From the NCBI RefSeq assembly GCF_004570845.1, contig NZ_SPQZ01000001.1, positions 558,001-622,000 of the forward strand: DNA of 64,000 nt. The letters run 5' to 3'. Numbering within the stretch: the stretch's first letter is position 1; the number at the start of each line of letters is the position of its first letter. The translations under genes and the position numbers were made by a program. This DNA comes from Orlajensenia leifsoniae. GTDB lineage: Bacteria > Actinomycetota > Actinomycetes > Actinomycetales > Microbacteriaceae. Below, one piece after another: positions 47,216-49,072 of this stretch. The notes under the pieces are model-generated. The model was not told the DNA's origin. It was given only the letters and a program-made list of their open reading frames with translations, and did not search any database.

Positions 47216-47243
47216 TTCACACTCAGGGAGTAACTGGTAGCAT
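47216..47243 (+). promoter_or_regulatory. Leader promoter of the ABC-F gene
   Basis: TTCACA (47216-47221), 16-bp spacer, TAGCAT (47238-47243). The -10 ends 6 nt before the GTG at 47250, the same leaderless spacing seen at many genes here. Confidence 0.6.
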
Positions 47244-47249
47244 CCCTTC

Positions 47250-47279
47250 GTGCTTACCCTAGAAATCGACAAAGCCTAG
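47250..47279 (+). CDS. Candidate leader peptide MLTLEIDKA
   Basis: A 9-codon ORF with GTG start, TAG stop, placed at the transcript 5' end by the -10 at 47238. It ends on the first base of the hairpin at 47279, so a ribosome stalled in it would cover that hairpin's 5' arm. Translation is inferred, not shown. Confidence 0.5.
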   Translation: MLTLEIDKA

Positions 47280-47298
47280 CCACCGAACTCTCGGTGGC
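47279..47298 (+). promoter_or_regulatory. Leader hairpin 1
   Basis: Perfect 8-bp stem GCCACCGA/TCGGTGGC with loop ACTC, directly after the leader ORF. Its 3' side contains TGGCGGC (47295-47301), the exact complement of GCCGCCA in the next hairpin. Confidence 0.55.
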
Positions 47299-47361
47299 GG
47301 CTCCGCGACATCTCTGCGCCTTGCTCCTTTTGAGCGGCGCCGTTGTCTGTGCTGCCGCGTG

Positions 47362-47394
47362 GCCGCCATTGGCGGCTGGTTTCTGATCGTTTTC
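47362..47394 (+). terminator. Attenuator-like terminator hairpin
   Basis: GCCGCC, loop ATT, GGCGGC (47362-47376), followed by TGGTTTCTGATCGTTTT. Short stem and T-rich tail fit an intrinsic terminator 44 bp before the ABC-F start. Confidence 0.5.
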
Positions 47395-47437
47395 GCTCCC
47401 GCCATTGCGGTTGAGCGCACGCAAGCAAAGGGTAGTC

Positions 47438-49072
47438 ATGTCATCCAACAACGCAGCCATCGTGCTGTCGAATCTCTCGTTCACCTGGCCGGATGGGGTG
47501 CCAGCGATCGCAGGCATCACGGGGAGTTTCACCGCCGGGCGAACCGGTCTCGTCGGATCTAACGGCGCCGGTAAATCCACCCTCCTGAGGCTTATCGCCG
47601 GAGAAATCGTCCCGACGTCCGGAGCGTTCAGCGCGACTGGTGAGGTCGGCTACCTTTCGCAGTCGCTGACTTGGCACGACTCGACCACGATGGCCGATCT
47701 TCTTGGTATCGCGCCGATCGTTGCGGCGATCAGGGCGGTTGAGAGTGGGGACGTCGATGAACGTCATTTCGACACGATCGGCGACGACTGGGACATCGAA
47801 TCACGGGCCGACGAGCAGCTTCGCCGGGTCGGCTTCTCCGCCCATGATCTCGACCGGAGCGTGAGCGAGCTTTCTGGGGGCGAAGTGATGCTCATCGCGA
47901 TCACCGGGCTTCGGGTTCGGCGATTGCCGATCACACTGCTCGACGAACCGAGCAACAACCTCGATCGAGCCGGAAAAGCGATGCTGGCTGACATGCTCGA
48001 GACGTGGCCCGGCACGCTCGTAGTCGTCAGCCACGATCTCGATCTCCTCGATCTGATGGATCAAACGGCCGAGTTGTACGACGGCCACCTCACTGTCTTC
48101 GGCGGCCCATACACGGAGTGGAAAGAGAACCTGGATCGGCAGCAGGCCGCGGCCGTGCTGGCCAGTCAGGCGGCAGAGAACGCGGTGAAAGCCGAACGAC
48201 GCCAGCGCGACGAAGCCGAAAGCAAGCTCGCCAAGCGTGCCCGTTCGGCCAAAACGGCGAACGAGAACAAGCGCGGGTCCAAGATCTTGATGAACGGACT
48301 GGCTTCACGCGCGGAGAACTCGGCGGGCAAGCTCCGTTCAGGTCTCGATGACCGGCTGGACGCTGCACGCGACGCGAAGGCGGCAGCGGCCGCGCGTGTG
48401 CGACCTGACCAGCGCATCAGTCTCAACCTCCCTGACCCGCAGGTTCCGGCGAGCAGGCGTATCGCCGAACTCCGCGGCGTCAACCGCTCGTTCGCCATCC
48501 AAGGCCCAGAACGCATCGCTCTGGTGGGCCCAAATGGAGTCGGGAAGACCACCCTCATCGAGACCCTTCTCGGCCTGCGTTCGGCGGAGCCGGGCCGCGC
48601 GTCCGCGACCCTTCACACAGACCGTGTCGGCTACCTCAGCCAGCGCTTGGACGGCCTCGACGAAGGCGCGACTGCGCTGGAGAATATCCGTCTGGTCGCA
48701 CCTGGGATCAGTGATGCGCAGATACGCAACCAACTGGGGCGCCTGCTCATCAAGGGCGACAACGTCAATCGACCCGTATCGACGCTCTCCGGCGGCGAAC
48801 GCTTCCGTATCTGCCTCGCACGTCTGCTGCTTGCTGATCCACCGGCCCAGTTGCTCGTGCTGGACGAACCTACGAACAACTTGGATGTCGTGAGCGTCCA
48901 CCAGCTCGTCGACGCACTGAACAGCTACCAAGGTGCCCTCGTCCTCATCAGCCACGACGACCGGTTCCTCGCGCGACTCGGTCTCACCGTGATGCTCACG
49001 CTCGACGCCGCCGGTCGCCTGGATGAGATCGCGGCCGGTGCCGGTGCCGGTGCCGGTGCCGGTGCCGCCTGA
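47438..49072 (+). CDS. ABC-F subfamily ATPase (ribosome-protection or translation factor type)
   Basis: 544 aa. Two ABC domains without membrane segments: Walker A GSNGAGKST (about 45-53) and GPNGVGKTT (about 366), signatures LSGGEVMLI and LSGGERFRI, Walker B TLLDEPSNNLD and LVLDEPTNNLD. The P-site tRNA interaction linker between them is basic and Ala-rich (KRARSAKTANENKRGSK). Members displace antibiotics from ribosomes or tune translation. ATG at 47438 has AAAGGG 6 nt upstream. It ends in a repeated GAGAGAGAGAA tail encoded by a hexamer repeat. The leader before it suggests antibiotic-inducible control. Confidence 0.9.
   Translation: MSSNNAAIVLSNLSFTWPDGVPAIAGITGSFTAGRTGLVGSNGAGKSTLLRLIAGEIVPTSGAFSATGEVGYLSQSLTWHDSTTMADLLGIAPIVAAIRAVESGDVDERHFDTIGDDWDIESRADEQLRRVGFSAHDLDRSVSELSGGEVMLIAITGLRVRRLPITLLDEPSNNLDRAGKAMLADMLETWPGTLVVVSHDLDLLDLMDQTAELYDGHLTVFGGPYTEWKENLDRQQAAAVLASQAAENAVKAERRQRDEAESKLAKRARSAKTANENKRGSKILMNGLASRAENSAGKLRSGLDDRLDAARDAKAAAAARVRPDQRISLNLPDPQVPASRRIAELRGVNRSFAIQGPERIALVGPNGVGKTTLIETLLGLRSAEPGRASATLHTDRVGYLSQRLDGLDEGATALENIRLVAPGISDAQIRNQLGRLLIKGDNVNRPVSTLSGGERFRICLARLLLADPPAQLLVLDEPTNNLDVVSVHQLVDALNSYQGALVLISHDDRFLARLGLTVMLTLDAAGRLDEIAAGAGAGAGAGAA
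49033..49068 (+). repeat. In-frame hexanucleotide repeat
   Basis: Five to six tandem copies of GCCGGT encode an Ala-Gly tail at the ABC-F C-terminus. Copy number can change without breaking the frame. Confidence 0.85.

Follow-up and report, generated by a model that had tools for sequence, protein, structure and literature searches.

A nine-codon upstream ORF (uORF) that encodes MLTLEIDKA, starts directly behind a promoter, and runs with its stop codon into a perfect hairpin precedes an ABC-F gene in the window (the whole stretch of DNA analysed, 64,000 nt), and this layout recurs upstream of orthologous genes. Our reading, to which we give a probability of roughly one half, is that a nine-codon leaderless uORF here serves ribosome-mediated attenuation of an ABC-F (ribosome protection) gene of the ARE5 type. 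That the uORF is a translated regulatory leader of the ABC-F gene is very likely. The conserved layout suggests that the cell probably uses the uORF to sense stalled ribosomes and to switch the resistance gene on. The elements concerned are the following.

47216 to 47243, + strand: promoter TTCACA-N16-TAGCAT with TG before the −10 box (TTCACA at 47216-47221, TAGCAT at 47238-47243, spacer 16 nt), from a sequence scan
47250 to 47279, + strand: predicted leaderless uORF, MLTLEIDKA-stop, GTG to TAG, conserved in orthologous leaders
47279 to 47298, + strand: P1, a perfect 8-bp hairpin, GCCACCGA-ACTC-TCGGTGGC, from folding and covariation
47293 to 47301, + strand: candidate anti-terminator strand, the P1 3′ arm plus GGC, pairing with 47361-47370
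47360 to 47394, + strand: candidate intrinsic terminator, GCCGCC-ATT-GGCGGC with a weak T-rich tail, from a terminator scan
47427 to 47432, + strand: AAAGGG, the Shine-Dalgarno sequence of the ABC-F gene, 5 nt before the ATG at 47438
47438 to 49072, + strand: ABC-F gene, ARE5 clade, two ATP-binding cassettes, from a profile match

The ABC-F product comprises 544 residues and scored 325 bits against the NCBIfam profile ribo_prot_ABC_F, which is below the cut-off of 380. The end of the gene consists of a GGTGCC tandem repeat (49036-49068) and gives the protein a Gly-Ala C-terminal tail. A close relative (E below 1e-100) was present in 105 of 400 genomes of the family, about a quarter, and in none of the three other congeneric genomes searched at that threshold; all 17 Streptomyces genomes searched contained a relative at 44-48% identity. 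Among the leaders of the Streptomyces relatives represented in the protein tree (see below), 16 carried an uORF of the are5sc type, TTG CTC GTC TGA (MLV), and one, L105, an uORF of the tiaA type (MVGEDDISG). Because these correspond to the published uORFs of are5sc (MLV) and tiaA (MVGDDDISG; PMC12421871), the gene would belong to the ARE5 clade, which contains LmrC, TiaA, and Are5sc, or be a close neighbor of it, a placement made via the uORFs of its relatives. It appears to be of the antibiotic-resistance type, with a predicted role in resistance. An Rfam scan of the whole window at gathering scores returned no match.

The uORF had been proposed before from the letters of the DNA alone, and it was recovered at 47250-47279 both by reading and by a re-scan (GTG CTT ACC CTA GAA ATC GAC AAA GCC TAG). 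Its core, x-x-x-E-[IVA]-D-[RKS]-[AIL]-stop, is located upstream of 18 orthologous ABC-F genes, all from Microbacteriaceae (Leifsonia, Mycetocola, and Agreia among those named). When the 400 family genomes were searched with the motif GARATHGAYARRGCNTAR (E-I-D-[RK]-A-stop), eight matches were obtained (three for the reversed-pattern control), each of them within a nine-codon ORF immediately ahead of an ABC-F gene; the peptides were MLTLEIDKA, MLTPEIDRA, MLIDEIDRA, MIIDEIDRA, and MEIDEIDRA. When named genomes were scanned, Leifsonia sp. TF02-11 and Agreia pratensis (MLSPEIDSA) came in as new members, and Leifsonia shinshuensis and three Mycetocola species could be named as carriers; the pattern used included CCNYC after the stop and is thus biased towards the hairpin, a bias of which the family search is free. 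The leaders of 133 oriented orthologues contributed MEIEVDRA, MEIEVDRI, MEIEVDRL, MDIEVDRA, MDIEVDRI, MLIPEADRL, and MELIEVDIRA, and the ORFs of this kind (type A) measure 8, 9, or 10 codons. In L131, the motif is kept and both stop and hairpin are lost. Across 16 aligned uORFs, the core codons are GAA/GAG, ATC/ATA/GTC/GCA, GAC only, AGA/AGG/AAA/AGC, GCC/GCG/ATC/CTC, and TAG/TAA, with synonymous changes at the E, I/V, R, and A codons within the conserved peptide. Matches from farther away were discarded as chance: the sole one outside the family in a class-wide search has TGG in place of the stop, and those from Lachnospiraceae, planctomycete, and other MAGs lie at the ends of long ORFs or have no intact uORF.

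Between 47100 and 47500, the promoter was the only promoter-like match (shuffle mean 0.1), and the spacing noticed earlier is correct, the GTG at 47250 following TAGCAT by 6 nt. Transcription would thus start at or near 47250. A TAnnnT box ending 6-9 nt before the uORF start was found in all 18 orthologous leaders, compared with 13 of 1,771 (0.7%) other ATG or GTG codons of the same loci, which served as the background. A Shine-Dalgarno-like stretch preceded one of the 18 type A uORF starts, as opposed to 12 of the 18 main-gene starts. In the type B uORFs of sister orthologues (see below), the picture was reversed, with the −10 box in 2 of 49 and a Shine-Dalgarno-like stretch in 38 of 49, counts for which the Shine-Dalgarno word list differed slightly from that used for type A. 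Because the −10 box lies 6-9 nt from the start in every leader and Shine-Dalgarno sequences are almost missing, the type A uORF is likely to be leaderless. The sequence-only reading had seen, in front of the ABC-F gene, a short leaderless ORF acting as a sensor and had proposed a search for a conserved ORF and stems in orthologous leaders; this search strongly supports it, with ORF, start-adjacent promoter, and stop-anchored hairpin retained in 15-18 leaders.

P1 begins on the last base of the uORF stop codon, as described earlier, and folds with −14.0 kcal/mol (z −5.7). In ∼15 of the 17 stop-keeping leaders, a hairpin GCCRCCG...CGGYGGC begins at the stop codon or beside it; the exceptions, L004 and L123, fold otherwise, the hairpin of L123 being weak. 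When 17 P1 sequences were aligned, 92.4% of the cells were paired and five were changed on both sides, the compensatory changes being A-U to G-C and C-G to U-A. Two of 500 shuffles scored as high in covariation, and sliding-arm controls were much lower; because related sequences inflate such shuffles, the covariation is taken as support, not as proof. ORFs of 8, 9, and 10 codons all keep P1 at the stop. Thus, P1 is tied to the stop and not to the start, and the ribosomes able to open it would be those at the end of the ORF. Since promoter, ORF, and P1 are conserved in orthologous leaders, they are not there by chance; the second hairpin, taken alone, could be.

This second hairpin, GCCGCC-ATT-GGCGGC at 47362-47376, was the sole terminator-like match in the region (0.4 ± 0.8 in shuffles). 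The GC hairpin with a T-rich tail described before at 47362-47394 does exist, but its own score is unexceptional against shuffles (p = 0.17), the local fold is ordinary (z 0.23), and the T-tract, GGTTTCTGATCGTTTT, is weak and interrupted. Among the orthologues, terminator-like elements reached p 0.02-0.07 at best (L120, L064, L139, and L067), and a search of the leaders L065, L071, L072, and L080 revealed no terminator-like hairpin. TGGCGGC (47295-47301) and GCCGCCA (47362-47368) are indeed exact complements over 7 nt. Pairing of the P1 3′ arm with downstream sequence was equalled or bettered by 5 of 200 shuffles for the window and by 1 of 200 for each of two Leifsonia leaders; it was weak in L124 (13/200) and L066 (26/200). 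For Leifsonia, the strand that pairs is a neighbor of the terminator-like stem and not part of it. When the window leader was folded under constraints, the prediction showed the exchange between hairpin and terminator that the sequence-only reading had envisaged. Its proposal that stalling frees TGGCGGC to break the terminator finds support in the window and Leifsonia but is not significant in most other leaders, and four leaders are missing a terminator-like hairpin. As a switch for all type A leaders, 3′-arm/terminator pairing was rejected, being significant in the window and the two Leifsonia leaders only; there, terminator and pairing are credible, and across the set they are not conserved.

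In the mechanism that we favor, 70S ribosomes would initiate at the 5′ end of the mRNA and translate the uORF. If a drug or another stress held up a ribosome on the final codons or at the stop, the P1 5′ arm would be covered by that ribosome, and the freed 3′ arm could pair with the terminator 5′ arm, letting RNA polymerase read through into the ABC-F gene. In the absence of a pause, P1 and the terminator would both form and ABC-F expression would stay low. This wiring (pause at the ORF end, P1 opened, terminator broken) is tentative and falls a little short of an even bet; the weak hairpin of L123 and the motif without stop or hairpin in L131 speak against it. On the ARE5 uORFs tiaAL and are5scL1 of Streptomyces, lincosamides, streptogramin A, and pleuromutilins stall ribosomes at the start codon (PMC12421871); a ribosome stalled there would not reach P1. 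Arrest on MsrDL occurs at its stop codon (PMC10314930). Because the MsrDL arrest stands against these start-codon stalls and the polarity reported for whiB7/wblC and lmrC, arrest or pausing at the ORF end is favored and the inverse polarity is kept as a serious rival.

With the inverse polarity, full translation of the uORF would keep P1 open and lead to termination, and drugs blocking initiation or the first peptide bonds would keep ribosomes off the stop codon and thereby let P1 form and the gene be read. The published wblC/whiB7 model works this way, full translation favoring termination (PMC11550727), and lmrC became constitutive once the start of its uORF2 was mutated (PMC8546547). A ribosome stalled at the start would leave P1 uncovered, and the free MFE structure of several leaders has uORF sequence paired to the T-rich region downstream. 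This pairing, however, was not significant overall (Fisher p = 0.10 over leaders), and general pairing between uORF and downstream leader is unproven as a switch. In addition, the P1 3′ arm of the window complements the terminator 5′ arm, so that P1 formation should favor termination, and conservation is found in the last five codons rather than in the first ones. The inverse polarity is considered unlikely. Attenuation of translation, in which the uORF RNA would hide the ABC-F Shine-Dalgarno sequence until this is exposed by a ribosome held where the leaderless ORF begins, is improbable. Complementary stretches were found in the window (TTACCCT, 47254-47260, with AGGGTAG; p = 0.07), in G354 (GACCCCT with AGGGGTT; p = 0.19), and in G306 (TTGACGAGA with TCTCGTCAA; p = 0.07), but such pairing attained p 0.03-0.07 at best in single leaders and was mostly non-significant, and the stop-anchored hairpin would be left unexplained.

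The codon before the last sense codon is AGA or AGG in 14 of the 16 aligned uORFs, across lineages and in high-GC genomes, compared with 41 of 928 Arg codons (4.4%) in the ABC-F genes themselves. The leader could, thus, sense slow decoding of these rare codons (arginyl-tRNA supply or general translation stress) instead of a drug-specific arrest, and whiB7/wblC also answers amino acid starvation (PMC11550727). Yet, the position is occupied by AAA (Lys) in the window and AGC (Ser) in Agreia (and by CGG in L082, which is outside the 16), and conservation extends to E, D, and the stop, which makes rare-codon sensing a poor candidate too. A functionless chance ORF and hairpin, for which the weak terminator statistics alone speak, is ruled out by conservation (eight of eight motif matches before ABC-F genes, 18 of 18 promoter boxes, and P1 covariation).

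On a tree built from 132 ABC-F proteins, the leader types clustered (23 changes versus a shuffled mean of 65). Type A fell into a single group of 31 rows with weak support, which also contains some type B and some rows of no recognised leader type; type B surrounds this group, tiaA is far off, and the backbone is poorly resolved. Most likely, type A took the place of type B on one or a few occasions. The type B uORF was observed in L005, L007, L010, L070, L127, and ∼50 other orthologous leaders; it is led by a Shine-Dalgarno sequence and has CGCTGA at its end (for example, MKFFDGFAPQSAR and MKILDGFTPRSAR, each followed by a stop). Several type B leaders contain GCGCTGAC, the complement of GTCAGCGC, which immediately precedes the ABC-F Shine-Dalgarno sequence, and the type is also found outside Microbacteriaceae (L015-L017). 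It looks like a widespread ARE5 attenuator. Type C leaders (L132, L134, L135, L136, and L138), which constitute one well supported clade, contain a two-codon uORF, TTG ATC TGA (MI-stop), preceded by a GGAAGTCC stretch. In L084 (G344), a three-codon uORF, GTG AAG CTG TGA (MKL-stop), is located ∼211 nt before the ABC-F match and 7 nt after TAGCCT; it also looks leaderless. One orthologous resistance gene whose sensor was swapped several times (MLV, MVG[DE]DDISG, and types A, B, and C) amounts to a natural experiment on leader-peptide evolution.

A second leaderless-looking uORF family, MGTLI[FY]x-stop (MGTLIFL, MGTLIYS, and MGTLIFQ), precedes ABC-F genes in L056 (G000:C2:106205-108054), L057 (G000:C1:281048-282885), L188, and L189. 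Two of the genes led by it are in the window's own genome and are TlrC/CarA/OleB/SrmB-like (683 and 674 bits). Across 300 genomes, the pattern gave four matches, all before ABC-F genes, and the control none. With its LIF core, the peptide is reminiscent of MsrDL (MYLIFM), a sensor of macrolides; downstream of the uORF comes a GTCGAGCnnnGCTCC[AG]CGG-like hairpin. It is conceivable that x-x-x-E-[IV]-D-R-A-stop is an undescribed arrest peptide on leaderless mRNA (70S initiation), and that leaderless uORFs are a general design in Microbacteriaceae, shared by ARE5 genes and those of the MGTLI[FY]x/TlrC/OleB type.

Ribosome-mediated attenuation of ABC-F genes, ARE5 included, is already known, and uORF attenuators have been suggested for mycobacteria, where leaderless mRNAs are abundant (PMC4633059). 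New here would be the different peptide, the missing 5′ UTR, and a hairpin tied to the stop codon. A search of the open PMC literature yielded no description of an ABC-F gene led by a leaderless uORF, nor of an MLTLEIDKA-type peptide; the characterised ABC-F leader uORFs found there are preceded by a 5′ UTR or a ribosome binding site. If true, a conserved leaderless sensor ties drug sensing to 70S initiation at the mRNA 5′ end, and the fixed peptide core with its kept rare codon makes arrest directly testable.

Among known systems, tiaA/are5sc of Streptomyces coelicolor resemble the window in belonging to the ARE5 clade and in having a short uORF and a proposed terminator/anti-terminator (PMC12421871); tiaAL also has nine codons, and its L105 copy has an inverted repeat overlapping the stop. 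In contrast to the window, their peptides are MVGDDDISG and MLV (not MLTLEIDKA), ribosome binding sites are present, and toeprints are at the start codon. Homology of type A with tiaAL, considered in view of shared acidic residues, a small C-terminal residue, and the bridging peptide MELIEVDIRA in L082, is unsupported by the tree. The lmrC gene of Streptomyces lincolnensis is likewise an ARE5 gene under ribosome-mediated transcription attenuation, but its uORF overlaps the terminator, and translation of the uORF is needed for termination (PMC8546547). In MsrDL/msrD of streptococci, as in the window, an ABC-F gene is preceded by a very short leader peptide, and stop-codon arrest on MsrDL releases the terminator; its peptide (MYLIFM) differs, is macrolide specific, and is not described as having a leaderless start (PMC10314930). 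The mycobacterial cysteine-rich uORFs, candidate attenuators, are short, conserved, and from actinobacteria in which leaderless translation is common, but they precede amino-acid metabolism genes and use cysteine codons (PMC4633059). The uORFs of whiB7/wblC are actinobacterial attenuators as well, responsive to drugs and starvation; unlike the window, their target is a transcription factor and the reported polarity is opposite (PMC11550727).
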